Positions 1,352 through 25,589 of a stretch of 43,655 nt of DNA are shown piece after piece. Below the pieces are notes generated by a model that had not been told where the DNA came from, did not search any database, and saw only the letters and a list, made by a program, of their open reading frames with translations. A program made the position numbers and the translations under genes. Numbering within the stretch: the first letter of the stretch is position 1; each line of letters starts with the position of its first letter. The DNA is from Botryosphaeria dothidea (taxonomy: Eukaryota; Ascomycota; Dothideomycetes; Botryosphaeriales; Botryosphaeriaceae), in assembly GCA_011503125.2 (NCBI GenBank), contig WWBZ02000019.1, positions 1 through 43,655 on the forward strand. Direction: 5' to 3'.

Positions 1352-1829
1352 TGTAACGAGCGGGCCTCTACCTCTAAGGATCCAAACACCAAAGAGGGTG
1401 GAAACCTGTCGAGGGTTTTCCTTGAGTGGGTACAAGAAGAGGTACGTGAGGAACGAGTAGACGACTGAAGACTGAGCACTGCGTGCGAAGGCCTTGTTAC
1501 TAACAATTGGTGCTGAATTGTTATTGAAGTTGACCACGAAGGTCAAAGCTATCTAGAGAGCGTGGTTTATATACGTAGGAGAGTTCTATACAATCTATGT
1601 GCTCAATAGGCGGGTTGCGCTCAATGGCGCGTAGTCTTCTGAGCGAGCTGTTGTGATTGAGCAGGATGGCTCAGTAGGTGGGGCCCGCTCAGGCAGCCTT
1701 GGCAATCTGAGCGGGTGGGTCTAGTTGAGCGCGAGGTCACGTGACCTCGGATCTTTATGACCCCGACTTCTGTTGTTCCGGCGGGGCTGATCCCTAACTT
1801 CCTCAACCTGTGGAGGCTGCGCCGTAACA
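1352..1829 (-). repeat. 3' LTR of the intact chromovirus
   Basis: This is a 478-bp long terminal repeat, TGTAACG to GTAACA on the plus strand, identical by eye to 8887-9364. Relative to the element it is the 3' LTR and supplies the polyadenylation region. It also lies upstream of the antisense ORF, whose transcript would have to start in or just after this LTR. A TTTATATA sequence at about 1566-1573 is close to palindromic and could act in either direction. Confidence 0.95.
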
Positions 1830-1842
1830 CTATCCCCCCCTT
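1830..1842 (-). other. Polypurine tract of the intact chromovirus
   Basis: On the minus strand the bases before the 3' LTR read AAGGGGGGGATAG, then TGTTACGG at the LTR start. This is the plus-strand priming site for reverse transcription. Very similar purine tracts followed by TGTTACG or its RIPed form TATTACG precede the LTRs at 24354 and 31989. Confidence 0.88.
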
Positions 1843-1926
1843 AAGGATCTTCGGCCCGAAGATTCTTCCGTATTGCCTATTTCCTTGTGGGTTCTTCCTG
1901 GCTTACTTTCTCTCCGTAAGTCCATC

Positions 1927-2910
1927 ATGTCTAAACGTAAGCGGGATACTACGGAGGAACGACGTCGTTTGGCGGCCCTCGTGGAGTCTATTTCCTTTCC
2001 CGCGATTCGTCCCTGCTTTGATTGTGAACTAAACGGTAGGCCGTGTAAGGTTGCTCCGGAACACGATCGTTGTGGTGCTTGTATTGCGAAGGGTACTACG
2101 ATGTGTGATGCGAAGAAGATGTCGCTTTCTGGAGGTAGGTGGTCTTTTCTTCTGTCCGGGATGCTTGCTCACGTTTTTCTAGCCTTAAGTCTTCGCCGCG
2201 AGCAGGAGAAGTTAAAGGCCAAGGAGGCCGAGGCTCAAGAGAAGTTTCTGGCTTCTCTGGCTGATCTTGATAGGCTCCGTGCTGTTCAGGAGGAAGAGCG
2301 AGTGCGCTTACGGCGGGAGCAAGAGGAGATGCATCGTCGTCATGAGGAGGTCCTGCGATGCCAGGAGAAAGAGCTAGGGACTGTTGCTGCTCGTTTGAAA
2401 CGGTTGCGGGCCAACCAGCGTTTGTTGGAGGAGCGTGGTTACAAGGCTCTTCTTGCTGAGTCTGGTAGTTTGGCCGCGTTGGATGAGCATGATCGTCGGG
2501 AAGCGGAGGAGTTGCTGGCTGCGCTGGCCGAGGATGAGGGGTACGCTCCTGACCCTGAGAATTCTGAGGGTCCGTCCGCGTCAAAACGGCCACGTCACGA
2601 GACGGTGGGTCTTGCTGCGCCGCATGTGGCTGAGTCTGCCGAGTCTGCCGGCGAGCCTGTGGCTGGTGCGAAATCTCCGTGCTCTCCTGAGCCTGTGAAT
2701 TCTGCCCGTTTATCCCCTATCTTGAGGGTCTCTCGCCGTTCTCGTTCGGGGACGACCTCGTTTCCGTGGGAGGTCGGGATTTTGACGGTGGAATTCTGTG
2801 ACGAGATCTGGATGTATGTCGTCCTTGGGTACCCATTGGTTATCCTCATTTCCGTATCCTTCCCATTTGACAAGATATTTGAGCTGATGTCCGAATCTTT
2901 TGCAGTCTAA
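1927..2910 (+). CDS. Antisense ORF: six-cysteine plus coiled-coil protein carried by the chromovirus
   Basis: This frame runs opposite to gag-pol, between the end of pol and the 3' LTR. The frame is open from 1873, but that is a TTG. The first ATG is 1927, with A at -3, giving 327 codons before splicing. Residues 1-14 are basic (SKRKR), a possible nuclear signal. Six cysteines at 30, 33, 40, 49, 52 and 60 form C-x2-C-x6-C-x8-C-x2-C-x7-C, probably zinc-binding. An in-frame 48-nt intron is likely at 2135-2182. A long Arg/Glu/Leu-rich coiled coil follows (about residues 88-215), then a Ser/Pro/Ala tail. The last 201 nt overlap pol tail to tail, and the final ~40 residues may simply be antisense chromodomain. 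RIPed relatives at 14676-15395 and 23560-24240 keep the cysteine spacing, the coiled coil and intron signals. That argues for a real protein. The function is unknown; a nucleic-acid-binding or regulatory role is only inferred. Confidence 0.75.
   Translation: MSKRKRDTTEERRRLAALVESISFPAIRPCFDCELNGRPCKVAPEHDRCGACIAKGTTMCDAKKMSLSGGRWSFLLSGMLAHVFLALSLRREQEKLKAKEAEAQEKFLASLADLDRLRAVQEEERVRLRREQEEMHRRHEEVLRCQEKELGTVAARLKRLRANQRLLEERGYKALLAESGSLAALDEHDRREAEELLAALAEDEGYAPDPENSEGPSASKRPRHETVGLAAPHVAESAESAGEPVAGAKSPCSPEPVNSARLSPILRVSRRSRSGTTSFPWEVGILTVEFCDEIWMYVVLGYPLVILISVSFPFDKIFELMSESFAV
2135..2182 (+). other. Probable 48-nt spliceosomal intron in the antisense ORF
   Basis: GTAGGT at 2135 fits a fungal 5' splice site. 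A CTCAC branch-like sequence lies at about 2168-2172, and a pyrimidine run ends in TCTAG at 2182. The length is a multiple of three and the insert has no stop, so the ORF stays open if unspliced. Splicing would remove a hydrophobic stretch between the Cys motif and the coiled coil. The related RIPed ORF has GTAAGT...CTAAC...CTAG (14929-14975, 47 nt) at the same place, where splicing would be required to keep the frame. Confidence 0.65.
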
Positions 2911-5900
2911 GATTTTCTCGACTGGGTATTCGTCTTCTTCGGCATCTGGGTTTTCTGGGATTATCTCTTCTGGAGTTTCTGGGATTGTGGCGTTTTCTGG
3001 TGCTGGCTCGAGCAATGCCACGTGAAAGGTGGAATTCATTCGTGTCGTTGCTGGCAATTTGAGTCGATACGTAACGTTTCCAAGTTTTTCTGAAATTTCG
3101 AATGGACCGGTTTTCTTGAAATCCAATTTGTCGCTTGGTCGCTTCGATTTGATGTTTTTTGTGAGGAGGTATACTTTATCCCCCCTCTTTAGGTTCGGTG
3201 CCGCCTGGTGCCGTCTGTTGTAGTACTTGGACATCATGATTCGTACGTGCTCGAGGTCGAGACTGATGGCTTTGTGTAGTTCTTTTAGCTGCTCGGCTTT
3301 AAGAACACCTTGTTGGGCCAATTTTCGACTTGGGATGGCTTCTCTATACGCGTCTGGTTCGAATCCATAGTTGGCAAAGAACGGGGATACGTTGGTTGAC
3401 TCTTGTTTGGCGCTGTTGTAGGCGAACTGTGCCATAGGTAGCCATGTGGCCCAATCGTCCTGTGGGTAGTTGACGAAACAGCGGAGATATTGTTCGAGAG
3501 TCCGGTTCATCCGTTCTGTCTGACCGTCCGTTTGCGGGTGTGCGGTTGTAGAGAGTTTGTTCTTAGCCCCAAGTTGACGCATGAGCGTTTGCCAGAATTC
3601 AGAACGCATTAGCTTATCTCTGTCCGAAACCAGTTCTTCCGGCATTCCGTAATCCGCGAAGATGTATCGGAGGAACGTATGAGCTAGCTGCTCTGCATTC
3701 GATGCCTCGAGGTAGGGCAAGAAGTAAGCGTACTTCGTGAGTCTGTCGACAAAGACTAGGATCGAGTCGTGCTTAACTCCGGTAAGCGAGTCTCTAGACT
3801 GTGGCAGCTTCGTAATAAAGTCTAGCGTAACCGATTGCCATGGTCGTTCTGGAACTTCTAGGGGTTGTAGTTGTCCGTACGGAGCGTGTGTCGCGGCTTT
3901 GCTTCTAATGCAAAGGTCACATTGCGAGACTATGCGCTGGACTGTCTTCCGTAACCCTGGAAAGTAGAAGTTTCGTGTGATCCTTTCGGTTGTCCTGTCG
4001 ATGCCCTGATGTCCATGCGCGGGTGCTTCGTGTATATCCTTGACTAGTACTTCTCGCAGTCTTGCCGGGACATAGATTAATCCTTTGAAGAGAAGCGTTC
4101 CTTCCCTATCTCGAGCAATACGCGGGTCGTCCTCAAGCGCTAAAAGTTCCTGCGCGAAGGAGTCCTGTGCGTATGCTTCTCGGATCTTCAGATGCCATGG
4201 GTTTGACTCGATGCGAAGCATTGGGAAAGACGGTCTGGCAAGGGTGAGCGATCCATCGCTATCCACTGCGAACACTGCAGGGTGCGGCTCGATTCGTCCT
4301 TCCATGTAGTCTACCCTTCTGCTGAGTGCGTCAGCGGCGGCGTTATCTACACCTTTTCTATGTGTAATCTTAAAATCGTAGGAGGCCATTTCTTCAGACC
4401 AGCGAACCTGTCGTCGGTTCAGCTCCTTAGTCGTGGTGAAGCGCGTGAGGTTTTGATGATCGCAGTGCACTACCACCTGGTAGCTGGCTCCTTCAAGATA
4501 GTGTCTCCATTGCTTGAATGCTGAGACGATAGCTAAGAGCTCCTTGTCGTGAGTATCGTAGTTGAGCTCTGCCGGTGTGAACTTCCTAGAGTAAAACGCG
4601 ATTGGGTGCCATCGACCTTGATCGTCAGGCTGGCTGAGACATGCTCCGAGGGCGAATCCTGACGCATCAGTTTCTACTTCGATAGGTTTGTCGGGATCAT
4701 ATATCCCTAGAACCGGTGCTTCGCAAAACATGCGTTTAAGCGATTCGAAGGCTTGCTGCTGATCGTCTCCCCATTTGAAGCCATGCTCCTTTCGAGTGAG
4801 TCGCGTTAAAGGTTCCGTGACCTTTGAGTAGTTCCAAATGAACTTTCGGTAGAAGTTCGCGAATCCAAGGAAAGACTGAACTTCCTTGATCGTCTTGGGT
4901 ACTGGCCATTCTCTAATGGAATCCAGTTTCGAGTCGTCCATACCGACGTGACCTGGGGTGATGACAAAGCCTAAGAATTCTGTCCTTTGAACGTGCCATT
5001 CGCATTTCTCGGGTGCGATAGACAGATTCTTTGCCTGGAGGGCTTCTAGGACCTTTCTGACATGCTTCTTATGATCCTCGAGGGTCTCTGAAAAGATGAG
5101 GATATCGTCGAGGTAAGCTAAGCAGAAGATATCCAAGTATTCGCGCAGCGTATCGTTGACAAGATTTTGGAAAGTTGCTGGCGCGTTGGTAAGCCCGAAT
5201 GGCATAACCGTATACTCGTAGAGTCCTAGCCTCGTTCTGAAGGCTGTCTTCCATTCTTCCCCTTCTTTGATCCTAACCAGGTGATATCCTTCCCGGAGGT
5301 CCAGCTTCGTAAAGTACTTTGCTTTCCCTAACTTGTCCTGGAGCTCGTCGATGCGTGGGAGCGGATAGCGGTTCTTGATCGTGATGTCGTTGAGTTGTCG
5401 GTAGTCGACACAGAGGCGTAGTTTGCCATTCTTCTTTGGGACGAAAAGGATCGGATATCCGGCTGATGACGTTGAAGGCCGAATATATCCGCGTTCGAGG
5501 TTCTTCTCGATGTATTCCCTTAAAGCCTCCATTTCCTTTGCTGATAAGGAGTAGATGGGCTTATAAGCTGGCTTCGTGCCCGGCTTGAGTGGAATCTCGT
5601 GGTCCCATGGTTGATGCTTCGGCAAATCTCCTTTTCCTCTTTCTTGGCAAACGGCTTTTAAGTCCCAGTACTCGCTGGGTACCGTTTCCATTTCCGGTAT
5701 TGGAGGTTCTCCGTATGGATTGTTCCATGTCTCCAAACTACCGTGTTGTCCCCTTCTAATCCTCGCGGGATCGTCTCCTCCAATGGGAGTAGGACTATCC
5801 TCATCCTTAAGCCTTTCCCGTGCGGCCTTGGCTAGTGCTCTCTGTTGCACCGCCTGTGAGGGTTTGATGTACATGAGGCAGACCTGCTGGCCTTGGCGTC

Positions 5901-6945
5901 TCATACGCTTGAATGCCTCTCCTGAGATTGTCTGGACGTCGACTTGAGGTTCAGTGGCTGCTAATTGCTTACGCGAAGCCTTACTCTTAGCCTTATGCCT
6001 TTTCCTCGTAGTCCTTCGTGACGTATGCTGTACTTGTTCGTCGGGAATACTAGACTCGGTTGGTCTTACTCCGCTTGAGGTGCTGCATTTTACCGAGGAG
6101 GCGGCGTCTCGTACGCTACTGTCCTGGTCCTGTTTTACGCTTTCCTTAAGGTTGCCGTTGATGCTGCCGTCGCTGGGCCTTACGCCATCATTGCCGTTGA
6201 TGCTGCCGTCACTGGGCCTCACGCCATCGTGGCTAGAGTCGTATCTTAAGTCGGGGGTATCGTTTCGCTTAGTAGGGCTTATTCCTGCAATAGGGTTGCA
6301 TTTTACCGAGGAGGCTTCGCTACTTGCGTCGCAGTCCTGGTGCTGACTTACACCACTATCGGAGTCGCCTACACAGTTGCCACATTCAGGCCTTACACTG
6401 GCTACTTCCCGTGTTGATGTCGATAGGAGCTTTCGAAGGGTATCCAACAACCCATTCTCCTTCTGTAATCCTTGTTTTCGTAGGAGGTCCTCGAGCTCCT
6501 CTCGAAAGATAATGGAGTCTCCTTCTCCGAAGTCGAAGATAGGTTTCTGTGTCCGGATCCAGGGCATACCTAGAATGATATCGTGCCCAGGAATACGTTG
6601 GACGTCGAGGGAAATCCGTTCTTGATGGTTCCCTATCTGGAGGGTTGCTTCCTCCGTTTCTATCTTTACCCAGCCTTCTCCGTAGGCTGCCTGGGATCCG
6701 TCGAATCCACTGAGGGGATACGGTTCCTGTTTCTTGCGGTATGGGATATTCATCTTCTGCACAAGCTCGTTGTGGATGAAATTTCCGCTTGATCCTGTAT
6801 CGATCAGGATTCTAGTGGGTACTCCGTTGAGTATTCCTTGTGTCTTGAACTGTTTCCATAGGTTTGGTCCGGTAAGAGTTTCCGTTTCCGATGTGCGCGA
6901 TACCATATGAAGGGACCTAGACTGTGGCCCCTGGGTTGGTCCCAT
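2710..6945 (-). CDS. pol: Pol polyprotein (PR-RT-RH-IN-chromodomain) of the intact chromovirus
   Basis: This 1411-residue polyprotein copies and integrates the element. A retropepsin is visible as DTGSS at residues 49-53. Next is a Ser/Asp-rich linker with a 13-residue tandem duplication (about 239-264). Reverse transcriptase spans about 450-715 with YLDD at 611-614. RNase H has VETDASG (D760) and HCDHQNL (D829). Integrase has an HHCC finger (H972, H979, C1009, C1012) and a D1042, D1108, E1144 triad with DD35E spacing. A GPY/F module follows (about 1276-1298), then a C-terminal chromodomain (about 1339-1391) with VEKIL and LVKWEGY, which in this group directs integration to marked chromatin. 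The ATG at 6945 lies 14 nt past the gag stop. The frame is open back to 6963, so synthesis as Gag-Pol by -1 frameshifting is more likely than independent initiation. No inactivating change is visible. Confidence 0.96.
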   Translation of the reverse strand: MGPTQGPQSRSLHMVSRTSETETLTGPNLWKQFKTQGILNGVPTRILIDTGSSGNFIHNELVQKMNIPYRKKQEPYPLSGFDGSQAAYGEGWVKIETEEATLQIGNHQERISLDVQRIPGHDIILGMPWIRTQKPIFDFGEGDSIIFREELEDLLRKQGLQKENGLLDTLRKLLSTSTREVASVRPECGNCVGDSDSGVSQHQDCDASSEASSVKCNPIAGISPTKRNDTPDLRYDSSHDGVRPSDGSINGNDGVRPSDGSINGNLKESVKQDQDSSVRDAASSVKCSTSSGVRPTESSIPDEQVQHTSRRTTRKRHKAKSKASRKQLAATEPQVDVQTISGEAFKRMRRQGQQVCLMYIKPSQAVQQRALAKAARERLKDEDSPTPIGGDDPARIRRGQHGSLETWNNPYGEPPIPEMETVPSEYWDLKAVCQERGKGDLPKHQPWDHEIPLKPGTKPAYKPIYSLSAKEMEALREYIEKNLERGYIRPSTSSAGYPILFVPKKNGKLRLCVDYRQLNDITIKNRYPLPRIDELQDKLGKAKYFTKLDLREGYHLVRIKEGEEWKTAFRTRLGLYEYTVMPFGLTNAPATFQNLVNDTLREYLDIFCLAYLDDILIFSETLEDHKKHVRKVLEALQAKNLSIAPEKCEWHVQRTEFLGFVITPGHVGMDDSKLDSIREWPVPKTIKEVQSFLGFANFYRKFIWNYSKVTEPLTRLTRKEHGFKWGDDQQQAFESLKRMFCEAPVLGIYDPDKPIEVETDASGFALGACLSQPDDQGRWHPIAFYSRKFTPAELNYDTHDKELLAIVSAFKQWRHYLEGASYQVVVHCDHQNLTRFTTTKELNRRQVRWSEEMASYDFKITHRKGVDNAAADALSRRVDYMEGRIEPHPAVFAVDSDGSLTLARPSFPMLRIESNPWHLKIREAYAQDSFAQELLALEDDPRIARDREGTLLFKGLIYVPARLREVLVKDIHEAPAHGHQGIDRTTERITRNFYFPGLRKTVQRIVSQCDLCIRSKAATHAPYGQLQPLEVPERPWQSVTLDFITKLPQSRDSLTGVKHDSILVFVDRLTKYAYFLPYLEASNAEQLAHTFLRYIFADYGMPEELVSDRDKLMRSEFWQTLMRQLGAKNKLSTTAHPQTDGQTERMNRTLEQYLRCFVNYPQDDWATWLPMAQFAYNSAKQESTNVSPFFANYGFEPDAYREAIPSRKLAQQGVLKAEQLKELHKAISLDLEHVRIMMSKYYNRRHQAAPNLKRGDKVYLLTKNIKSKRPSDKLDFKKTGPFEISEKLGNVTYRLKLPATTRMNSTFHVALLEPAPENATIPETPEEIIPENPDAEEDEYPVEKILDCKRFGHQLKYLVKWEGYGNEDNQWVPKDDIHPDLVTEFHRQNPDLPRKRGRPRTRTARDPQDRG
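6151..6230 (-). repeat. Two-copy 39-bp tandem repeat in the pol linker
   Basis: Two adjacent copies of a 39-bp unit encode DGVRPSDGSINGN twice. The RIPed relative has the same duplication at about 18764-18842, so it predates the split between the two elements. It lies in the protease-RT linker, a region with little structural constraint. Confidence 0.8.
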
Positions 6946-6969
6946 TGCCGTAGGGCCGTCTAGTTTTTT
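6917..6969 (-). promoter_or_regulatory. -1 ribosomal frameshift signal at the gag/pol junction
   Basis: On the minus strand gag ends CCA AAA AAC TAG. The heptamer A AAA AAC (6969-6963) is a canonical X XXY YYZ slippery site in the gag frame, touching the stop codon (6962-6960). A -1 slip gives CTA GAC GGC and is in phase with pol. Downstream arms can pair: CTAGAC (6963-6958) with GTCTAG (6922-6917), and GGCCC (6957-6953) with GGGCC (6930-6926). A small TGGG/CCCA hairpin sits inside. The heptamer and stop are retained in the RIPed relative at 19582-19573. Confidence 0.85.
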
Positions 6970-8789
6970 GGCATAGGGTAGCCGTAGACTTCACTGTGCA
7001 TATAGTCTTCCCATTCGTTGACTTGGAGATATGCTTGCTTCCAGTTGGTCCATTTGTCGGAGTTCTGCTTCCTTCGCCAGTAGACTTTGTCCTTTCGAAC
7101 CTGATATCTAAAGGTTGGTCGATTGAGCTTCTTGTCCGGAATCCACTGGAGTGTACGATGCTGGATCGTTGCCGTGCCGTACTGGCAGAGAATCCGTGCT
7201 AGTTCCCGGAGGGAGTCGTAGTCTGCTTGCTCGCGTGCTGAGGTTCCTTGGTGGTGGCGTTCGACGAGTGTCGTTTCTTTGGTCACCGGAAGTTCGTACT
7301 TCTTCCCGTCTTGTTCAATTCGGGTTTCCCAAAGGGTGTTCTGACGCCATCCCCAAATGACCGTAAGCGCGATGCCTTTCTGATGCGGAATCCAGATTGT
7401 TTGACTAAGATTGCCCCATTCGTCCCGTAGGTGGTTGCCAATGCCGTATCTTTCAGCGAGAACTTCTAACGAGACGAGGGTGTCTAGTTTGTCCGATGGT
7501 ATAGGTGCATTATCTGACTGCGTTTCACTAGTACTCTCGTATAGTTCTCCTGTTTCGCTGTTGACAAGTTCGTCGTCTAGAGGGAAACTATCGATGATAT
7601 CGTCGGTTTCGATGACTTCTTCGTTCCTGGTCATCATACCGAAGTTTCGAGGTTCGTGGGGGTACCATCCAGAGATATCCTTGCTGGTTTGGTGCGTCTG
7701 ACAGCCGTCATCGTAACAGGCTGTCCAGTGTAGCGTATCGTGGTTGTCTTGGCGAGATGCAACCGACGCTTCACGCTGAGCGCTCGAAGTCTGCTTGTTG
7801 TCCTTCTTGCTGCGAGGGTTCTGCGGACACTTAGGAGAGAAGTGTTTGTCACTGCCGCAGGTGATGCAGAGTCGATCCTTATAGCGCTGTTTCTGCTCAT
7901 CCGTCCAGTTCGGGTTAGGTCCCTTGGGCTTCTTGTTGTTGTGACCATTGTTGCCCTTCTTGGAATCCTGTCTGTTGGCCGCGTCGAGGGCCATAGCGTC
8001 TCCGCCTTCGAGGGTTGTTCTTTCACGGCGGGGCTTCGAGGTGTTGGATTGTCGAGAACCCATCTTCCATTCGTACATGCGACCGTCGATCTGAGACGCA
8101 AGGTCTACCATCTTCTGAAAGGTAGGTGGGTATTCGTGAGTGATCATGTTCTTCTTGACTTCGTCCTTCAGGCCTTTATAGAAGAGGTCGCGGAAAGTCT
8201 CGTCTGACCATTCGAGGTAGGCTGCAAGCTGCTGAAACTTGGTTGCGTAGACAGCTACAGATCCCATCTGTCTAACGGTCATAATATCGTTAGAGGCTTT
8301 GCGGACTTCGTCCCGATCGTTGAAAGTGGCCCTAAGGTTGTCTGCGAATCCCGTGTAGGTGTCGAAGATTTCCTTGGTCTTTGCCCGTCTCTTCTCGAGA
8401 GAGTGTTCGTTGGCTAGGTGGTCGCGAAGGTATGGTTCCATCCATGCTTCTGCCGTTCCTCTGAGGTAGGTTGATGCGAAGAGCACTTCTTCGGCGTCGT
8501 TGTCGAATTGTGCTTGGTTAAACTGGAGGTAGCGTTGCATCTGGAGTAGGAAGGATTGGAGCTTCTTCCTGTCCCCATCGAACTTCTCGGGTGCCGCTAC
8601 TTTAACCTTAGTAGCGCTCCGCTTTGTCGTGTGCTCGATCAGTCGAGCGTTCTGAGCTTTCAACTCCTCGATGAGTTGTAAGAGCTCAGCTCTGGTAGGC
8701 TCTGTTTGCAGCGCGGGCGGAGCACGCCCTGGGGCACCCTCAGCGCGGCCCTCCGTTGGGTCGACGTCCATCTGAGATCCTGGTGCCAT
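6960..8789 (-). CDS. gag: Gag protein of the intact chromovirus
   Basis: This 609-residue structural protein forms the virus-like particle. A short N-terminal helix (TRAELLQLIEELKAQNARL, about 32-50) precedes the capsid-like domain (about 65-240), which has the usual fungal gypsy features GDRKKLQSF, TYLRGTAEAW and YATKFQQLAAYLEW. A CCHC zinc knuckle lies at C308, C311, H316 and C321. Unusually, about 290 residues follow it. That extension contains WTACYDDGCQTH and GWYP, resembling a second zinc-binding motif, then an acidic stretch and a Trp/Tyr-rich C-terminal domain. The older element's gag at 1-1351 and 9365-9640 shares this extension, so it is a stable part of this lineage. The ATG at 8789 follows a 97-nt gap from the LTR. 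The stop at 6960 carries the frameshift site. Confidence 0.95.
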   Translation of the reverse strand: MAPGSQMDVDPTEGRAEGAPGRAPPALQTEPTRAELLQLIEELKAQNARLIEHTTKRSATKVKVAAPEKFDGDRKKLQSFLLQMQRYLQFNQAQFDNDAEEVLFASTYLRGTAEAWMEPYLRDHLANEHSLEKRRAKTKEIFDTYTGFADNLRATFNDRDEVRKASNDIMTVRQMGSVAVYATKFQQLAAYLEWSDETFRDLFYKGLKDEVKKNMITHEYPPTFQKMVDLASQIDGRMYEWKMGSRQSNTSKPRRERTTLEGGDAMALDAANRQDSKKGNNGHNNKKPKGPNPNWTDEQKQRYKDRLCITCGSDKHFSPKCPQNPRSKKDNKQTSSAQREASVASRQDNHDTLHWTACYDDGCQTHQTSKDISGWYPHEPRNFGMMTRNEEVIETDDIIDSFPLDDELVNSETGELYESTSETQSDNAPIPSDKLDTLVSLEVLAERYGIGNHLRDEWGNLSQTIWIPHQKGIALTVIWGWRQNTLWETRIEQDGKKYELPVTKETTLVERHHQGTSAREQADYDSLRELARILCQYGTATIQHRTLQWIPDKKLNRPTFRYQVRKDKVYWRRKQNSDKWTNWKQAYLQVNEWEDYMHSEVYGYPMPKN

Positions 8790-8876
8790 TGTATGCTTTC
8801 CCTAAACGCGTTAGGCGGGGTGATACTTAACCTAATAACTCGTTCTTCCTGAACGGTCCCTCTCCTTGCAAGGATG

Positions 8877-8886
8877 GTGGTCAAAG
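8877..8886 (-). other. Primer-binding site, self-priming type
   Basis: After the 5' LTR the minus strand reads CT then TTGACCAC (8884-8877). It does not begin with TGG, as a tRNA-primed site normally would. It is the exact complement of GTGGTCAA at 9072-9065 in the LTR, which lies ~30 nt past a TATA box and so near the predicted mRNA 5' end. This is the layout of Tf1/sushi elements, whose mRNA primes its own reverse transcription. Confidence 0.72.
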
Positions 8887-9364
8887 TGTAACGAGCGGGC
8901 CTCTACCTCTAAGGATCCAAACACCAAAGAGGGTGGAAACCTGTCGAGGGTTTTCCTTGAGTGGGTACAAGAAGAGGTACGTGAGGAACGAGTAGACGAC
9001 TGAAGACTGAGCACTGCGTGCGAAGGCCTTGTTACTAACAATTGGTGCTGAATTGTTATTGAAGTTGACCACGAAGGTCAAAGCTATCTAGAGAGCGTGG
9101 TTTATATACGTAGGAGAGTTCTATACAATCTATGTGCTCAATAGGCGGGTTGCGCTCAATGGCGCGTAGTCTTCTGAGCGAGCTGTTGTGATTGAGCAGG
9201 ATGGCTCAGTAGGTGGGGCCCGCTCAGGCAGCCTTGGCAATCTGAGCGGGTGGGTCTAGTTGAGCGCGAGGTCACGTGACCTCGGATCTTTATGACCCCG
9301 ACTTCTGTTGTTCCGGCGGGGCTGATCCCTAACTTCCTCAACCTGTGGAGGCTGCGCCGTAACA
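8887..9364 (-). repeat. 5' LTR of the intact chromovirus
   Basis: This 478-bp LTR carries the element's promoter and the start of its transcript. It is identical by eye to the left LTR, so insertion is recent. By the predicted transcript start (~9072), U3 is about 290 bp and R-U5 about 186 bp. Confidence 0.95.
9101..9108 (-). promoter_or_regulatory. TATA box of the chromovirus promoter
   Basis: The minus strand reads TATATAAA at 9108-9101. The sequence complementary to the primer-binding site begins at 9072, 29 nt after the end of the box. This is the right distance for it to be the transcript start. Confidence 0.7.
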
Positions 9365-9962
9365 GCTACGAGATAAAGCTCGCGGCGCCTAATAGAAGGA
9401 AGATAGGTAATACCTACGAAATATAGCACGTATACTCTATCGCTACGGGACCGTAATATAGTATAAGAACACGCTATACTAGATTCCCTAGGGCAAGTAT
9501 AATATACCGATCTTCTAGTACCGGGTTAAGAAAAATTAGATTTACTAGAGACGCCGTATACGGCGCGGCTAGTAGACTTAGTAGAAGAACGCTATCTTCT
9601 TCTTAGAGAAATAAAACGAATATATTAGCTAAGAACTAATAAAAGTACGGGTATTCTACGTCTTTCCCGCTAACGAAGATATTTAGCCTATAACGCCGGC
9701 TATCTATAGAATCTATAACGTATCTAAGAATCTACGCTATATATCGTTAAAAAACTAGACGGCTCTATAAATATAGAATATTCGTAGAGGCCGTAACCTA
9801 GATTCCTTAATTAGGTTTTATATATATTAAACGATATATACGCTTTAGGAAAAGTACTTAGGATACTAGTAACTATTTACGAAAGAACTATAATAGTAAT
9901 ACTTAATAGCGGAGTAGAGGGTAACTTTATTAGCTATATCTTCGCTACTAAAAGTAATATTA
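9365..9962 (+). pseudogene. RIPed gag C-terminus and protease start of the old chromovirus
   Basis: The old gag frame resumes right after the intact insertion. At about 9435-9530 the translation reads YRYGTV and then Y.VKKN, matching CQYGTA and YQVRKD near the C-terminus of the intact Gag. The protease core appears at about 9890-9940 as ILNSGVEGNFI, against ILIDTGSSGNFI in the intact pol. The catalytic DTG has become NSG, so it is dead. The frame is interrupted at 9962 by the Fot1-like transposon. Confidence 0.8.
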
Positions 9963-10024
9963 ACGTAGTTTATTAGCGAGCCGCGTATATTAGCGACCCG
10001 CGTACTTTTTCTTAGCGTAACTAC
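9963..10024. repeat. Terminal inverted repeat, left, of the Fot1-like element
   Basis: Inverted partner of 12322-12383. Identity over the first ~49 bp despite heavy RIP elsewhere in the element is notable. Confidence 0.9.
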
Positions 10025-10299
10025 TCTTTACCCGAATTACGTAGCTAATATCTCTTAAATTAATTAAAATTAGTCGGAACTATAAATACCGGACATTACT
10101 TCTTCGACCTAGTATATTTATATATTATATCCGGGCTCGCCGTAGATACCGTATCGCCGTATAGTCGCCGGCCTTCCTCCGCCGCCATCCCGATTTTCGC
10201 GCCTATCGCGCGCTATCTATTTCTTACTATTTCTTTAAGCTAAAATATCTCGTATATCTTTAGTAGTTAATATACCTCCTTTACGGATACGTGTTTTCT

Positions 10300-12270
10300 T
10301 AGCCCTCCGGCGCTTACTAAGTACTTTATTTACTTTTTAAAGCGCGCGGTTCTCCTCGGTTAAAAGAGTTACCGTATAGACTATTTTCTCTAAACTCTTT
10401 ACTATTTACTTAATAACGGAAAAAATAGGCGTCGGGGAGCTTCCTTAATAACTATTAATCCGAGATATAACTAACTTAGATTACGAAATAGTCTCGGTCG
10501 GGTTATATAGCGTCTAGAAGACCTAAAGGTCGGCGTTAGCGTTAGAAGTACGCGCGGGTATTAGCGTCCGTAATTTAATATCTAACTTAGAAATAACGGC
10601 TTATAGATTAAATAGAATAAGTCTAGCACTCCGAAAAGCGCCGGTAATATTTTTCTTAGTTATTATAATATTATATATTCGAATCTTAGACCGCTTACCT
10701 ACTCGTAGTATATACGTCCTACGTTAAAAGTATACGTATCCGCGTTCTTCCTAGCGGTAATAAGGGGGAAAATCTATAAATAGTTAGGGTGGGCTATAAG
10801 TAGTATATACGTCCTACTATAAAAGTATACGTATCTACGTTCTCTCTAGCGGTAATAAGAAGAAGAAGAGCTAGCTAGGCGCTTCTAAAAATAAATTTTA
10901 AGAGCGCTTTACTAGCGCTTATAAATAGATAAGCCGGAACTTCTTACGGCTTAGTCTTAAGATTTATAGTTACCTCTCTCTATAGTTCCTCTCTCTTAGC
11001 TACTCTTTCTACTTTAGATACCGCTACTAATATATAGAAAAAACTATACTAAATAGAGTATCTATAGATACTACTATTATAGATAGAGAAGATTTTTACC
11101 CGGGCTATTCTAAGAAAGTAGCTACGGTTTTTTCTTCTATATACTCTTATAGATAGCTATAGCTATATAGACTCTTCGGGGAGCTAAATTAGCTTAAAAT
11201 TAAATTTATCTATCTATCTATTTATAATATTATATACTACGCGAAATACTAAGAAGAACTCGATCTTAGTAATATAGTTAATATACGCGCGGATAAATAG
11301 CCCGATTTCCTTTTCGTATACTCTTTTTAACGCGCTAAAGAAGCCGACGTTAAGCGGTTAGATTAAGTAGAACGAATAGGAAGGTAGGTAGATAGTAATA
11401 ATATTATATACCTTATAGAATTCCTTAAATTCGACTAATTAGTAGCTCTCGTACTTATCGAGTACTAGTATCTAGTAACTATCCTTTATACGCGCCGTAG
11501 TATACTTCTCGAAGTACTTAATCTAATCTAGATCTATATCGTTATCGGTCTACCCGTTAGAGGTCGGTTTAACCGGCTAGAAGTTAGAAAGACTACTCTT
11601 AGTATACTAGTTAGTAAGATAGCACCGGCCTTAAACTAGTAAAAACGGAAGGACGTTAAAGCCGTTACCGCTAATATAGATAATCGCGGTCGCCTATTCT
11701 TAATTACTAGGCTAAATTACCTTATTTTTTCTACGTTGATTAGCCCGGGTAATAACTATAGTAGAGTAGACTATATCTATTATAAAGCCGGTCTCGTCGA
11801 AATTATATAAATCGTAGTTCTAGATATTATATTTAGCCCGTATATTCGAGAATAGAGCGAACTATTCGCTTATAAGCTAAGAATCTTTATAAAGGGCTCG
11901 CTAGAAGTCGTAGGCGCGAGAAAAACGCGTACGTAGCTCTTCTCGTCGCTTAATAAAGCGGTTTAGCTAGAGCTTTCCGACGCGTCGCGCGCTCCGCGAC
12001 GCGAGGATATAGTCCGCTATTACGCGTACGTCTTCGATTAAGAGTAGGAATCCTCGTAAATCTAAGTCTAAGATATATTAGACGATTATATTCTTCTCGA
12101 TCTTAGCTAAATTCTAAGTAGCGGGCCGGGAATCGGCTTTAGGGGTTCTACCGTTTATTCTATCGCGGAGTATTAATTCGGGCACGTTATAGATCTTTAC
12201 CGCGGCGCGGCGGCTTAATTTTCGAGAGATTCGGATAGCTTCGATAGCTAAGATAATTCGTACTTTAGTT
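10300..12270 (-). pseudogene. RIPed pogo/Fot1 transposase (HTH + DDE)
   Basis: The minus-strand translation gives a helix-turn-helix region (about 12245-12090; VPELILRDRINGR), a CENP-B-like second HTH (about 12060-11900; RRVGKL, NRFIKRREELRTR) and the DDE domain. NFDETGF holds the first catalytic Asp (codon 11798-11796). LVLDKYES holds the second (around 11457). The expected LQPLDVGCF motif now reads LNVGFF, so the third Asp has become Asn (about 11351-11349) by a TpG to TpA change. Many stops come from CAG and TGG codons. It is inactive; its boundaries are approximate. Confidence 0.85.
10705..10859. repeat. Direct repeat, 95-bp period, in the Fot1-like element
   Basis: A ~61-bp sequence beginning GTAGTATATACGTCCTAC occurs at 10705 and again at 10800. 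The copies differ mainly by RIP-type transitions. It lies in the transposase C-terminal or 3' region. Confidence 0.7.
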
Positions 12271-12321
12271 ATTTAAATTCGTATACTTAGCTATAGAGAA
12301 AACGCGTATAGAAGATAAAAA

Positions 12322-12383
12322 ATAGTTACGCTAAGGAAAAGTACGCGGGTCGCTAATATACGCGGCTCGCTAATAAACTACGT
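12322..12383. repeat. Terminal inverted repeat, right, of the Fot1-like element
   Basis: Reverse complement of 9963-10024, followed by the TA target duplication at 12384-12385. Confidence 0.9.
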
Positions 12384-14113
12384 TAGTCTAATAAGAAAGA
12401 ACCGACTATATCTACTACGAACGGTAGACGGATTAGCCTCCTTCTACGATAAGAGATAGATATAAATTAAGACTAAACCCGTAAAGCTTACTATCGGGAA
12501 ATATATAAAGAAGATTATATTAGACGTAACCTCTATACTAGGGTATAATATTATTCTAGAAATCCCGTAGTTTAAAGCCTACGAACCTTATATTAAATAG
12601 AAAGAAAGAACCGTTACCTTTCTAAATAAGAAATACGCTAAATATCTAGCTACCGCTAGAAGAATATCTACGGATAAGAGTAGCTAGAGCTAAAGCTAGA
12701 AGTTAGAAAACTAGAGCTAGAAACGCTAGAGCCGCTAAAGTTATAACGACCCCGTAGACGTTAAAGAAATCTTCTACGTAGTAGTCTAACGTATAAGACG
12801 CTAAGAAGAAAAAATATATACGCTCTATCTAAAGCTAAGTAGAAAAATCGAGTAGAAAATTATAGCACGAATAAGACGGGGCCTCTATTTAGAGAATAAT
12901 AATATTCTAAAGCTAGTCGGAGAAGACTACCCCTAGAGGACTAATTAGAAGTATTACGGTCGCCTAATAAGGGGAAAACCTATACTTATAGATATTACGA
13001 TAAGCGAGAAAATATATAGGAAACTCGGCGGTATTATAAGGCCTAATATTAATAAATTAGTACTAATACCGGAATTAGAAACGGTATCTTAAGAGTTTTA
13101 GAAATATCTACGAATCTTCTAAGAAAGAGGTAAAGAATAACTACTAGAGTATAAACCTTAGAATTACGAAATTCCTCTTATACTAGGAGCGTAGCCCGCG
13201 TTTAAGCCTATCTACTCTCTATTAGAGAAGAAACTCGAGGCTCTAAAGAAATATATCGATAAGAACTTAGAACGAGGATATATACGGCCGTTATTATTAC
13301 TAGCTAGCTATTCTATTCTATTCGTTCTAAAAAAGAATAGTAAACTACGACTCTACGTAGACTACCGTTAGCTAAACGATATTACGATTAAGAATCGGTA
13401 CTCGCTTCTAAGAATAAACGAGCTATAGGATAAGTTCTAAACCGTAAAGTACTTTACGAAGTTCGACCTTAGAGAAGAATATTATCTAGTTCGTATAAAA
13501 GAAGAAGAAGAATAGAAAACCGTATTTAGAATACGCCTAGAGTACTTCGAGTATATAGTTATATCTTTTAGGCTTACTAACGCCCTAGATACGTTCTAGA
13601 GCCTAGTTAACGATATCTTACGCCCGTATCTAGACGTGTTTTATACGGTCTATCTAGACGATATTATTATTTACTTAGATACGCTCGAGAAGTATACTAA
13701 GTATATCTATAAGGTTCTTAAGGTACTCGAAGAACGAGATCTCTAGATCGTACCGGAGAAATACGAATAGTATATATAGAAAATAGAATTCCTTAAATTT
13801 ATTATTACTCCTAGATATATTAGTATAGACGATAAAAAGCTCGATACGATTAGAGAATAGCCCGCACCTACGTTAGTAAAGAACGTATAATCCTTCTTAG
13901 AATTTACTAACTTTTACCGAAAGTTTATTCTAAACTACGTAAAGATATTAGCGCTACTTTTAGACCTAATAAAAAAGAAGTACGGGTTTTATTAGAGAGA
14001 AAGATAGTAAATCGCCTTCGACTCGCTTAAGCGAATATTTATAGAAGCGCCGGTTCTAGGTATTTATAACTCTAACCTACTAATTACGGTAGAAACCGAC
14101 GCTTTAAACTACG
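12384..14113 (+). pseudogene. RIPed pol (protease end, linker, RT, start of RNase H) of the old chromovirus
   Basis: The pol frame continues after the Fot1-like insertion. LGYNIILEIP (about 12535-12570) matches the protease end LGMPW region. From about 13140 the RT is readable: KPIYSL, KNLERGYIRP, YVDYRQLNDITIKNRY, then FTKLDLRE and a YLDD box (about 13650). The segment ends at VETDALNY (about 14090-14113), the first catalytic Asp region of RNase H (VETDASGF in the intact pol), where the RIPed LTR element begins. Both CpA and TpG are depleted here. Confidence 0.88.
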
Positions 14114-14675: not shown

Positions 14676-15395
14676 ATACCTCCGAAAAAGCGTGTTGCTA
14701 AAGATTTCGCTATTAACCTTCGTCCTCGTAAGGTAAATAGAGTTATTCTTCGTCGCTAGGAGCTACTAGACGAGATTTTCTTTCGGGATATCGAGATAAT
14801 TTCTTATACGAATTATCTAGAGCACGAATTGGAGTGCGTAGCGTTATAAGAGAACCTATCTATTTATACTGCCTATTTAGGAGCTCGTCGGATAGAGTAT
14901 AATGTCGTAGTTCGGGGTGTTTCGCGTTGTAAGTTCTTTCTCTTTCTTTTTATATTTATACCTAACCGGCCCTAGTAGATTCTTTAGAGCGGGAATAGGC
15001 TCGTCTTACCGCGGAGGAGGACGTAACGTTAGAGAAGCTTCTTCGCCTACGTAAGTAGTAGCGTTTTCTTTAGTCGCGTCGTTCCCGTATAATTCGCGAA
15101 GGTTTCGAGTCGCTAGAGGAGCTTAAGAGGGCTAAGGCTTCCGGGTTACCTAGGGGTCCTTCTAACCCTAAGACCTCTAAGGATCCGTTCTTATTAGAGC
15201 GGCCACGTTACGAGTTAGTAGGTCCTACTATACCGTAGTCGGCTAAGTCTACCGCGTCTACCGGCGAGCCTACGGCTAATACGAAGTCTCCGCGTTCTTC
15301 TAAGCTTATAAATTCTACTCGTTTATCTTCTTTTCTTAAGAGTTTCCCGTCGTTCTCGTTCGGAGACGACCTCGTTTCCGTAGGAGGTTAGGATT
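14676..15395 (+). pseudogene. RIPed antisense ORF (six-cysteine plus coiled coil)
   Basis: This is the counterpart of the intact ORF at 1927-2910. The start codon is now ATA. The Cys motif (about 14810-14905) reads YTNY, LEHELEC, IYTAY and RRIEY. Restoring Tyr to Cys, as RIP implies, gives C-x2-C-x6-C-x9-C-x2-C-x7-C, one residue different from the intact ORF. A clear intron follows (14929-14975). An Arg/Leu/Glu coiled coil comes next, then a tail aligned with the intact protein (ERPRYELVG against KRPRHETVG; STGEPTANTKSP against SAGEPVAGAKSP). A one-base insertion breaks the frame near 15330. The shared organisation shows the ORF predates the split of the two subfamilies. Confidence 0.78.
14929..14975 (+). 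other. 47-nt intron in the RIPed antisense ORF
   Basis: It has a perfect GTAAGT donor at 14929, a pyrimidine-rich body, a CTAAC branch site (14962-14966) and a CTAG acceptor ending at 14975. It sits just after the Cys motif, as in the intact copy. Its length is not a multiple of three. Confidence 0.75.
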
Positions 15396-18300
15396 TTAAC
15401 GATAGAATTCTATAACGAGATCTAGATATATATCGTTCTTAGGTACCTATTAGTTATCCTTATTTCCGTATTCTTTCTATTTAATAAGATATTTAAGCTA
15501 ATATCCGAATCTTTTATAGTCTAAGATCTTCTTAACTAGGTATTCGTCTTTTTTAGTATCTAGATTTTCTAAGATTATTTCTTTTAGAGTTTCTAGAATT
15601 ATAGCGTTTTCTAGTACTAGTTCGAGTAATACCACGTAAAAGATAGAATTTATTCGTATCGTTACTAGTAATTTAAGTCGATACGTAACGTTTCCGAGTT
15701 TTTCTAAAATTTCGAATAGACCGGTTTTCTTAAAATCTAATTTGTCGCTTAGTCGCTTCGATTTAATATTTTTTATAAGAAGGTATACTTTATCCCTCTT
15801 CTTAAGGTTTAGTACCGCCTAGTACCGTCTATTATAATATTTAGATATTATAATTCGTACGTACTCGAGGTTAAGACTAATAGCTTTATATAGTTCTTTT
15901 AGCTAGTCGGCTTTAAGAATATCTTACTAGGCTAATTTTCGACTTAGAATAGCTTCTCTATACGTATCTAGTTCGAATCTATAGTTAGTAAAGAACGGAG
16001 ATACGTTAGTTAACTCTTATTTAGCGCTATTATAGGCGAACTATACTATAGATAGCTATATAGCCTAATCGTTCTATAGATAGTTAACGAAATAGCGGAG
16101 GTACTATTCGAGAGTCCGGTTTATCCGTTCTATCTAACCGTTCGTTTACGGGTATACGGTTATAGAGAGTTTATTCTTAGCCCTAAGTTAACGTATAAGC
16201 GTTTACTAAAATTTAGAACGTATTAGCTTATCTCTATCCGAAACTAGTTCTTCCGGTATTTCGTAATCCGCGAAGATATATCGGAGAAACGTATAGGCTA
16301 GCTATTCTATATTCGACGCCTCGAGGTAGAGTAAGAAGTAAGCGTACTTCGTAAGTCTATCGATAAAGACTAGGATTAAGTCGTACTTAACTCCGGTAAG
16401 TAAGTCTCTCGACTATAGTAGCTTCGTAATAAAGTCTAGCGTAACTAATTACTATAGTTATTCTAGAACTTCTAGGGGTTATAGTTATTCGTACGAAGCG
16501 TATATCGCGGCTTTACTTCTAATATAAAGGTTATATTACGAGACTATACGCTAGACTATCTTCCGTAACCCTAGAAAGTAGAAGTTTCGTATAATTCTTT
16601 CGGTTATTCTATCGATGCCCTAATATCTATACGCGGGTACTTCGTATATATTCTTAACTAGTACTTCTCGTAGTCTTGCCGGAATATAGATTAATTCTTT
16701 AAAGAGAAGCGTTCCTTCTCTATCTCGAGCGATACGCGGGTCGTCCTTAAGCGCTAAAAGTTTCTACGCGAAGAAGTCCTATACGTATACTTCTTAGATC
16801 GTCTAATACTATAGGTTTAACTTAATACGAAGTATTAGAAAAGACGGTCTAATAAGAGTAAGCGATCCGTCGCTATCTACTACGAACACTATAGAATACG
16901 GCTCGATTCGTTCTTCTATATAGTCTATCCTTCTACTAAGCGCGTTAGCGGCGGCGTTATCTATATCTTTTCTATATATAATCTTAAAATCGTAGGAGGC
17001 TATTTCTTTAGACTAGCGAATCTATTATCGGTTTAGCTCCTTAATCGTAGTAAAGCGCGTAAGGTTTTAATAATCGTAATATACTACTATCTAATAGCTA
17101 GCTCCTTTAAGATAGTATCTCTATTACTTAAATACTAAGACGATAGCTAAGAGCTTCTTATCGTAAGTATCGTAGTTAAGCTCTACTAATATAAACTTCC
17201 TAGAGTAAAACGCGATTAGGTACTATCTATCTTAATTATTAGACTAGCTAAGATATACTCTAAGGGCGAATTCTAACGTATTAGTTTCTACTTCGATAGG
17301 TTTATCGGGATCGTATATCCCTAGAACCGGTACTTTATAAAATATTCGTTTAAGCGATTCGAAGGCTTATTACTAATCGTCTTTCTATTTAAAGCTATAC
17401 TTCTTTCGAGTAAGTCGCGTTAAAGGTTTCGTAACCTTTAAATAGTTCTAGATAAACTTTCGATAGAAGTTCGCGAATCTAAGGAAAGACTAAACTTTCT
17501 TAATCGTCTTAGGTACTAGCTATTCTCTAATAGAATCTAGTTTCGAGTCGTCTATACCGACGTAACCTAGGGTAATAATAAGCCTAAGAATTCTATTCTT
17601 TAAACGTATTATTCGTATTTCTTAAGTACGATAGATAGATTCTTTACCTAGAGAGCTTCTAGGACCTTTCTAATATACTTCTTATAATTCTTAAGAATCT
17701 CTAAAAAGATAAGAATATCGTCGAGGTAAGCTAAGTAGAAGATATCTAAGTATTCGCGTAGCGTATCGTTAACGAGATTTTAGAAGGTTACTAGCGCGTT
17801 AGTAAGCCCGAATAGTATAATCGTATACTCGTAGAGTCCTAGCCTCGTTCTAAAGGCTATCTTCTATTCTTCTTCTTCTTTAATCCTAACTAGGTAATAT
17901 CCTTCTCGGAGGTCTAGCTTCGTAAAGTACTTTACTTTCTCTAACTTATCCTAGAGCTCGTTAATACGTAGGAGCGGATAGCGGTTCTTAATCGTAATAT
18001 CGTTAAGTTATCGGTAGTCGATATAGAGGCGTAATTTACTATTTTTCTTTAGGACGAAAAGAATTAAATATTCGGCTAATAACGTTAAAGGCCGAATATA
18101 TCCGCGTTCGAGGTTTTTCTCGATATATTCCCTTAAAGCCTCTATTTCCTTTACTAATAAGAAGTAGATAGGCTTATAAGCTAGCTTCGTGCTTAGCTTA
18201 AGCGGAATTTCGTAGTCCTATAGTTAGTACTTTAGTAAATCTTCTTTTCCTCTTTCTTAGTAAACGGCTCTTAAGTCCTAGTATTCGCTAGGTACCGTTT

Positions 18301-23559: not shown

Positions 23560-24240
23560 AGAGGCTACCGCGCCTAATTTACTAGCTCGGAACTCTCGGG
23601 TAGCGTAGTATTAGAACTAGCGCTAGGAGGACCGATAGACTAGGATAGACCTATAGCGTTATTAGCTAAGGGCTCGCTACGTAAACGCTTTAGTAACCGC
23701 TTCTCTCTAGTATTTTTAGAGTTAGTAGAGTCCCTAGCCTTACGAGTAGTCTCTAGGCGATCTAACTTCTCTAGCTTCTCTATAGTCGAGGCCTTCTTCG
23801 TAATTATTAGGCTTCCGCGCTTCTTTAAAAGATCCTTCTACTTCCTCGCCCGGTCTAGACGCGCTATCGTAGCCTAAGCGGCCCTTAGAGCCTCTACTTT
23901 ATCCTACTCGGCTTTATTAAGGGCTCGTCGTATACGAAGAACTAAGAAAGTTAGTAGCTAATAAGAAAATAAAGAAAGAAGTATATAATCCGAATAATCT
24001 AGGCTAGTAGCATTATAGGCCGACTTCTCCTTACGAGTATACTCTCTATAACGCGAATAGAACTTATCTATACGATAAACGATAAACGACGAATTATTCT
24101 CCTCTTTACTAAAATTTAGTAATAAATAAGAAGAATAAGGAAGGGGCATATCCTCGCTAAAAAGATTAATCTCGTTATCTAAATCCACGCGCTTAGCACG
24201 CTAACTATTACGCTTACGCTTACGAGACTCGAATAGTATA
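23560..24240 (-). pseudogene. RIPed antisense ORF of the old chromovirus
   Basis: It lies between pol and the 3' LTR, opposite to pol, exactly as in the other two chromoviruses. A basic start (SRKRKRN, about 24225) precedes an open stretch at 23958-24188. Tyrosines sit where the family has cysteines: YSSY, then YRIDKFYSRY, REY and SAY. This gives C-x2-C-x16-C-x8-C-x2-C-x7-C if restored; only the second spacing (x6 to x16) differs. A TACTAAC branch site and TTCTTAG acceptor (23956-23942) mark the same intron; its donor is not clear. After it comes a Lys/Arg/Glu/Leu coiled coil (about 23935-23650) and a Ser-rich tail. Confidence 0.65.
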
Positions 24241-24330
24241 GTAGAAGAACTTATAGAAGGAAAGAAAAAGAAAGCGGAGAAGAAAATAAGGAAGCCTAAG
24301 ATATAAGCGTATAAATAAATCTTCGGGCCG

Positions 24331-25061
24331 AAGATCCTTAAGAAGGGAGGTAGTATTACGAATTCTAGGCTATACGGACTTTAGTATCCTAAGAATAGAA
24401 AACCCGTACGGGAGAAAATACCGTAGGGACTAAGTTCCCGCACGGCTAGTAGAGCCGTACTATAAGAGATCCCGTACGGAAAGATTAGCCCTAAGGAAGT
24501 CGGCGCTTAAAGAATTAGTTACTAAGACTAAGGCCCGTATAAGAGGAAAGCCTATAAGGTATAAGGAAACTAGCGAAGCGCCGATAAGTTAGAGAACCCG
24601 TAGGGGAATAACGCGACTAAGAGCCGCCGGTAACGCTAAACGGTTAGGCTAGTAGAACCCGGGAAACTAATAAGAGGTATAGAAAGCGGTTAAGAGAAAG
24701 GTAGTTATCGCGTCCGTTTATAAGATTAGAAAACGGGATCCGGGAGAGAAGTCTAAGCGCCCGTATTATATAAGAACCTACCTTAGATTAGGACTAATCT
24801 AAGACCTATCTTTAGATCTTTACTAATCTAATACCTACTAGATTAGAAAAGATCTAAATACTATACTAGATTATTATAGCTTTTCTACTTATATATAACT
24901 ATACTTATTAGATAGTACTTTAACCTTCGTAATTAACTTAAAGTTCTAATATAACTCTATTAGAGGTAACGAGTCTTTCGTATACCGTATACTTACTTAT
25001 TACGTAATTTCTACCCGTTATTCCTATTCTTTATCCTTCTCTTATTATTTAAGGTAAACCC
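24331..25061 (+). repeat. Polypurine tract and 3' LTR of the old chromovirus
   Basis: AAGAAGGGAGGTAG (about 24340-24353) is the polypurine tract, preceded by a CTTCGGGCCGAAGATCCTTA block shared with the intact element. The LTR begins TATTACG at 24354 (RIPed TGTTACG). A TATATA near 24890 and TTCGTAATTAACTT at about 24926 correspond to the TATA box and transcript start region of the other LTRs. The 3' limit is not certain; homology to the helicase repeat begins near 25062. The partner 5' LTR is outside the window. Confidence 0.75.
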
Positions 25062-25589
25062 CTAATCGAAAAAGTTAAATCTATCCTTATAACGGTAGAT
25101 TTAGCGCCTATATAAATTAAGGTTTAGGATTAGAATTATAGGTACGGTAGATTTAGGTACGGTAGATTTAGAAAAAGAAATCGGATTCGCGTTAGATCGA
25201 GATATATTATAGAGCGCGGTCGGGCGATAAGAATTTTTACGTATAATATACCCGTCCGATCGCGCGTTCGAGTATAATTTAGTAGTTAGGATAAGTTAGG
25301 ATTAGATTTAATAGGGTAAAAGTAGCCCGAGCGGAGCGGTAGTAGACGGATAGAATCGCCGGATAGATAAAGAGTAAGCGAACGTATAGCCGGTAGTAGT
25401 ACGGGACGAGTTAGATAGTTTAGCGGCGATAAGGAGGGGAGTAGTTAGATAGAAAGAATAAGCCGGTTAGAGGAAAATAAAACGTATTTTTTATATTAGA
25501 GTATTAAAGTAGCGAGTAGTAAGTAGCGAATAGTAAGTAGTAGATAGTAGATAATAAGCGTAAGTTATTATAGCCGCCCGAGTAGCCGA
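25062..25589 (+). promoter_or_regulatory. Upstream region shared by two TLH copies
   Basis: It aligns with 35168-35690, including a TATATAAAT sequence (about 25112-25120) and a block of CGGTAGATTTAG repeats. Low-complexity AGTAGCGAGTAG repeats precede the coding homology. It probably holds the promoter and leader of the helicase gene, but no transcript start can be fixed. Confidence 0.45.

Follow-up and report, generated by a model that had tools for sequence, protein, structure and literature searches.

The window (the whole 43,655-nucleotide stretch analysed, contig C15 of the 51.7-Mb assembly G000 of the plant-associated fungus Botryosphaeria dothidea, which is also the genome that we searched) carries a retrotransposon on its minus strand, bounded by LTRs and the target-site duplication GCTAC. 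The domains RVT_1, RT_RNaseH, Integrase_H2C2, Chromo, and Ty3_capsid all score above their Pfam cut-offs and identify the element as a Ty3/gypsy chromovirus; the integrase core, rve, falls below its cut-off in this element (18.4 vs. 32.6). On the opposite strand the element bears an antisense gene that starts 97 bp from the U3 end of the LTR, and two related genes lie farther along the window:

1352..9364, minus strand: host element, with LTRs and target-site duplication
1352..1829, minus strand: 3′ LTR, 478 bp, identical to the other LTR
1732..1749: 18-bp U3 palindrome CGAGGTCACGTGACCTCG
1847..1863: perfect 17-bp palindrome ATCTTCGG-C-CCGAAGAT, between LTR/PPT and gene
1927..2134, plus strand: exon 1, basic start KRKRD and six-Cys segment
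2014..2106, plus strand: six-Cys segment C-x2-C-x6-C-x8-C-x2-C-x7-C
2135..2182, plus strand: predicted phase-1 intron GTAGGT...TGCTCAC...TTCTAG, 48 nt
2183..2801, plus strand: exon 2, long helix, second basic cluster KRPRH, Ser/Pro tail, acidic-aromatic end
2183..2535, plus strand: exon-2 part of the predicted single long helix (coiled-coil candidate; AlphaFold2 on homologue P0002)
2549..2564, plus strand: cassette junction, type-specific gene upstream, pol-shared sequence downstream
2710..6945, minus strand: open pol frame of the window copy, with protease, RT, RNase H, integrase, and chromodomain
6960..8789, minus strand: gag
8887..9364, minus strand: 5′ LTR, 478 bp
14676..15412, plus strand: second antisense gene, type F, RIP-marked, start approximate, window-type pol
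23560..24240, minus strand: third antisense gene, type E, RIP-marked, ends approximate, other pol lineage
24319..24335: type E palindrome

We distinguish six versions of the gene, types A to F, the window element carrying type A; the type survey covered 18 of 20 diverse loci (all except L034 and L038).

The remainder of the window has features of its own. TTAGGG-type telomere repeats stand at its end, and the members of a subtelomeric copy pair (25172–28863 and 35279–38450), ∼10 kb apart, are 76%–89% alike in the pieces listed and contain AGTAGT/GGTAGT-rich stretches. Inverted repeats of 70 bp, 96% complementary and spaced by 2.3 kb, mark a segment (9961–12385) that resembles a RIPed DNA transposon, and a pair of 157-bp direct repeats (31537–31693 and 31988–32144) is 99% alike with a spacing of 451 bp.

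The antisense frame begins at the ATG at 1927 and is open on the plus strand for 327 codons, to 2910, in the window copy. The original prediction took this frame for the intact gene; the openness stands, and what does not is its use as the frame of the family, the sister copies reading shorter, across a predicted intron. The genome search returned at least 19 near-identical copies elsewhere in G000, plus many diverged ones. Read without splicing, all 19 sister copies are open for only 84 codons. Removal of a predicted 47-nt intron, which has the same donor and acceptor in every one of them, yields one identical 275-residue protein in 18, ending at the family stop, which corresponds to window 2801; in the remaining copy (L020) a stop interrupts the frame. 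In the window copy the intron measures 48 nt and the frame shifts before 2801 and stays open to 2910, its single long frame arising because homopolymer runs differ in length by one base, differences that may be genuine or errors of assembly.

The small intron that had been placed just after the Cys segment is borne out as a GT...AG candidate whose signals and phase are kept in types A–D. Its predicted length is 47, 46, 49, 49, and 47 nt in A, B, C1, C2, and D, with donors GTAGGT, GTAGGT, GTAAGT, GTAAGT, and GTAAGA, respectively, and phase 1 in all five (for type D, the acceptor was picked between two AGs so as to keep the frame). No canonical intron was settled for type E, where the frame is open through a pyrimidine-rich stretch. 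The same splice junction is found in the gene model of homologue P0002 (B. dothidea GTA08_BOTSDO13028, 217 residues), whose C-terminus matches that of P0004 from Macrophomina. Homologue searches gave 11 proteins, three of them from Macrophomina phaseolina, and the search with exon 1 as query gave one; metagenome contigs are among the sources of P0005–P0012. A further gene model, P0003 (B. dothidea SLS57_006002), joins an NmrA-like domain to exon 2 of this family and represents either a host–transposon fusion or an annotation artefact. Counted among elements that bear the gene, the antisense frame lies at the pol/3′ LTR side in at least 19 sister copies and in types B–F. We conclude that the antisense gene, with its predicted intron, is a real protein gene.

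The gene had been described as lying between pol and the 3′ LTR, which holds for the window copy only. In all eight sister copies sampled, the pol frame runs past the window stop and continues opposite the gene to the equivalent of window ∼2031, +105 from the gene's ATG, with ∼256 codons of pol tail open opposite the gene; pol thus overlaps the gene, which is mostly nested in an open pol tail. In type D the open tail likewise covers much of the gene, and in the type E copy L049, whose gene is open too, it covers the whole gene. The question therefore arises which of the two frames codes. In L049 and L041–L048, the pol tail past the chromodomain is open for ∼250 or more codons opposite the gene, a natural case of overprinting; selection on this tail is not seen in types A–D.

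RIP makes transitions only, and we therefore counted transversions alone. The codon tests used five sequences (A, B, C1, C2, and D, types E and F lying outside the comparison), with ω calculated for five of the ten pairs, which are not independent of one another. Pooled transversion ω in the gene frame is 0.23 for A-B (bootstrap 95%, 0.12–0.42), 0.32 for A-C (0.21–0.47), and 0.58 for A-D (0.46–0.75), each interval lying below 1, so that the protein-level selection originally proposed is found among types A–D. The exons also preserve the gene frame through several length changes. As for the other five frames, which had been expected to be less conserved, ω of the gene frame is the lowest of the six in pooled A-B, A-C, and A-D, and this ranking fails in exon 2a (the first part of exon 2) for C-D, where it is 0.80 and not below two reverse frames (0.72 and 0.76); for A-D in exon 2a the margin is narrow, with 0.69 in the gene frame and two reverse frames at 0.72 and 0.76. 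The third positions of the gene coincide with those of one reverse frame, for which ω is low throughout.

The antisense frame might be a side effect of pol-tail coding on the opposite strand, a reading that draws on the open tail in the eight sister copies, in much of type D, and in all of L049. The codon data make it very improbable. In type A, the pol tail reads in reverse frame 0 along exon 1, overlapping its later half, and in reverse frame 2 along exon 2, where the third position of the pol tail is the second position of the gene. Transversions at gene codon positions 1/2/3 number 22/11/29 in exon 1 and 31/13/37 in exon 2a for A-D, and in exon 2a 9/3/15 for A-B and 6/8/17 for A-C2. Seen from the pol tail in exon 2a, the third position has the fewest transversions for A-D and A-B and the second fewest for A-C, and the second position has the most in all three. 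ω of the pol-tail frame is above 1 wherever it is defined (1.1 to 5.3): in type A, 1.1 and 3.5 in exon 1 (undefined for A-B) and 2.2–4.1 in exon 2a for pairs with A. The tail of L041, moreover, has no Pfam match. On codon-position counts, ω, and this blank Pfam result, we reject the mirror frame of the pol tail as the coding frame; the antisense gene is under purifying selection, and the pol-tail frame opposite is not.

The protein follows the plan read from the window sequence at the outset. Its six Cys have the spacing 2-6-8-2-7 in the window copy, and the plan remains recognizable in copies 2 (14676–15395, plus strand) and 3 (23560–24240, minus strand), both with RIP marks; the variant C-x2-C-x16-C-x8-C-x2-C-x7-C is intact in the related copy L049. 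Across types, the spacing is 2-6-8-2-7 in A, 2-6-9-2-7 in F, and 2-16-8-2-7 in E; copies with the full six-Cys spacing are present in types A, B, E, and F. RIP-marked copies of types C and D have Tyr at one or more of the six Cys codons, and homologue P0012 is without one Cys of the plan. The long coiled coil is matched by one long predicted helix, 121 residues (9–129) in the AlphaFold2 model of P0002, which covers exon 2 of type A only, with pLDDT mostly over 90. The tail is of low confidence in the model and does contain the Ser/Pro residues described. Exon 1 opens with the basic start KRKRD or KRPRD; homologues retain KRPR, and most also retain the acidic-aromatic C-terminus. An AlphaFold2 model of exon 1 from a three-sequence alignment reached a pLDDT of 52 and is uninformative on the fold of the Cys segment, and a sequence search of solved structures gave weak matches only (E 0.22 and above).

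Zn2Cys6 proteins have the spacing C-x2-C-x6-C-x5-12-C-x2-C-x6-8-C, typically with basic residues between the second and third Cys. Types A and F fit this spacing, which 1 of 200,000 shuffles of the window exon-1 protein matches, and type E, with x16, does not. The Pfam model Zn_clus (PF00172), the sole transcription-factor model to show up in the Pfam scan, scores 11 bits with window exon 1, under its cut-off of 21 (E 0.49), and its profile has no match to three other exon-1 proteins. The loops between Cys 2 and Cys 3 (ELNGRP and STNGRV) hold one Arg each, so that the basic loop is missing. On the Pfam score and the missing loop together, we reject a plain Zn2Cys6 factor. Neither a bZIP domain nor TRP28 (PF04195) appears in the Pfam scans.

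The window had been thought to hold three diverged chromoviruses. There are three elements, and they belong to two pol lineages: Copy 3 (type E) is indeed diverged, with 13% transversions over the 1150 of 4149 pol bases that align, and copy 2 combines pol of the window type (12 transversions over 4148 aligned bases) with a different gene cassette. In all, four other gene versions (B, C, D, and F) are found on pol of the window type. Over nine stretches (2.1 kb of pol aligned for D, ∼4.1 kb for B, C, and F), these pols differ from that of type A by 0.22%–0.39% transversions. The gene, from its ATG to the junction (the first ∼190 codons), differs from A by 4.6%–4.9% in B and by 10.2%–10.4% in C and gives no DNA alignment in D and F; 3′ of the junction the difference drops to 0%–0.4% in B, C, and D and 1.2%–2.7% in F. 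The versions therefore differ in the N-terminal two thirds of the protein, and the change falls at one junction, window 2549–2564.

That the gene is more diverged than pol, as originally noted, is thus clear (4.6%–10.4% or unalignable vs. 0.22%–0.39%). Its explanation as the ordinary drift of a selected gene does not survive, as pol is nearly without transversions, silent positions included. This is too similar for divergence in place, and recombination is therefore the likely cause: The gene versions probably arrived by recombination. The types are nonetheless homologous: In a search of the one genome, the type E protein matches a gene of type F at C58:2593513 (E 9.9e-8) and one of type D at C10:44691 (E 9.1e-5). 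U3 goes mostly with the gene version. Locus L025 (G000:C58:2589000-2597000) shows crossed combinations of types A and F, so U3 and gene are not strictly linked; there, an A-type gene copy that follows an F-type LTR contains within it an F-type gene preceded by an A-type U3.

The 17-bp palindrome beside the gene has the form CGG-N-CCG and lies 63 bp upstream of the gene start; CGG and CCG triplets are half-sites of Zn2Cys6 factors. It is unchanged in 15 of the 16 upstream sequences examined and has a single mismatch in copy 2 of the window, which is RIPed, but it lacks CpA and RIP cannot easily erode it, so its survival in RIPed copies is weak evidence. With at most one mismatch, there are 73 sites in 51.7 Mb, vs. 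three for a reversed control pattern. Among the 50 exact sites listed (of the 73), 46 lie within 1.5 kb of a gene-family match whose orientation agrees with that predicted from the centre base; for at least three of these 46 (C4:134272, C8:22862, and C58:23357), the match is to a C-terminal piece opposite pol only. The exact sites at G000:C29:154036, C36:1537527, C47:3965188, and C58:818623 have no recognized gene match within 1.5 kb and possibly mark further cassette types. As an RNA hairpin, the palindrome has a z of −3.2 on the gene's strand and −2.4 on the other. Types A, B, C, and D have a further palindrome, in U3, with CACGTG at its core, and in some B and C copies it is broken; between GAGGTCACGTGACCTC (types A and B) and GGAGTCACGTGACTCC (type D), the changes are symmetric. 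It was not found in two type E and two F-type upstream stretches.

We tentatively favour the reading that the antisense gene encodes a nuclear DNA-binding regulator acting on the element's own LTR, which we hold to be quite possible if somewhat short of probable. The U3 of the 3′ LTR would drive the antisense gene, and the long helix would lead to dimers; the Cys segment would bind zinc, and in dimeric form it would contact the palindrome, U3, or both. This contact would raise or lower LTR transcription, and exchange of the cassette by recombination could then bring new regulatory specificity while pol stays constant. The basic clusters (KRKRD/KRPRD and KRPRH), the long helix, the palindrome beside the gene, and selection on the frame all agree with such a regulator; the Zn_clus score, the lack of a basic loop, the hairpin potential of the palindrome, the absence of U3 palindromes from the E and F stretches, and the crossing in L025 speak against it. 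Somewhat unlikely, in our judgement, is that the protein acts on RNA or as a silencing or export factor, its Cys segment and helix binding genomic RNA or a host silencing protein. The same lack of basic DNA-contact residues in the Cys loop and of Zn_clus membership would suit this role, as would a conserved palindrome that can form an RNA hairpin adjoining the polypurine tract, and the strong difference between versions is what a host-interaction protein might show. However, basic clusters of nuclear-import type and adjacency to U3 suit transcription control better, and the hairpin extension of types A and D is, by eye, not kept in E.

The antisense transcript itself might instead be the active agent, as a copy-number antisense RNA or an RNAi trigger, with the protein secondary. 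The gene lies mostly opposite open pol in the eight sampled sister copies, and its transcript would therefore be complementary to pol mRNA; selection on amino acids and upkeep of the intron phase are not needed for an antisense RNA, and we regard this alternative as improbable. LTR elements do capture genes, and the NmrA-like fusion in P0003 could hint at a functionless piece of a captured host gene. That the gene exists in six versions on two pol lineages, has relatives in Macrophomina, and is under selection in its frame makes this hardly credible, and we reject it.

Antisense genes of retrotransposons as such are already known, and the Botryosphaeria gene is a variant of these. The view that no fungal family of the kind had been described is mistaken: The antisense gene brtn, “the additional antisense gene,” was reported in Boty-like retrotransposons of Botrytis cinerea (Zhao et al. 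2011, Virology 417:248, as cited in PMC8365987, PMC4227169, PMC7264820, and PMC5987419). According to these citing papers, brtn is antisense to gag-pol, adjoins the 3′ LTR of Boty, and is present also in Sclerotinia, and a Monilinia transcript resembles truncated Pol plus BRTN. By that description, both systems consist of a fungal chromodomain-bearing gypsy element with an extra antisense gene next to the 3′ LTR; Botrytis is absent among the named hits of our homologue searches, which reach close relatives only. The literature search led to brtn and to the plant cases and gave no description of the Botryosphaeria gene, nor of cassette exchange, the six-Cys plan, or the conserved palindrome, BRTN being represented there through citing papers only.

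The antisense ORFs of plant gypsy elements (Grande, RIRE2, Retand/TRP28, and PvRetro13), as summarized in PMC7264820 and PMC11963269, also lie between pol and the 3′ LTR, and a nuclear regulatory role has been proposed for them. They belong to other elements and have another protein plan, whereas the Botryosphaeria gene overlaps an open pol tail and has no TRP28 match. HBZ of HTLV-1 carries a bZIP helix. It is likewise an antisense gene, with a nuclear product (as given in PMC11963269); in contrast, the Botryosphaeria protein has a six-Cys segment and no bZIP match. With the Gal4-type Zn2Cys6 factors (PF00172), the gene shares the Cys spacing of types A and F, a predicted coiled coil after the Cys, and a CGG/CCG palindrome nearby, and it departs from them in its sub-cut-off Pfam score, the absent basic loop, and the x16 of type E.

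The immunity regions of lambdoid phages place an interchangeable regulator cassette on one core genome. A constant core and a swappable cassette are common to both systems; here the carrier is a retrotransposon, and the palindromes are only candidate operators. By this analogy, the antisense gene could be an exchangeable “immunity region”: At least five heterologous regulator versions on the same pol would each recognize their own element class through operator-like palindromes before the gene and, in most types, in U3, with a resident repressing incoming relatives and a cassette swap serving as escape, a conjecture that we consider quite improbable. Antisense retrotransposon genes have mainly been known as open frames without an assigned function. 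In the present family, selection on the protein is seen in changes that RIP does not make, a candidate binding site is conserved and lies for the most part next to the gene, and natural gene swaps occur on a constant pol. These features turn the function of such genes into a testable question.
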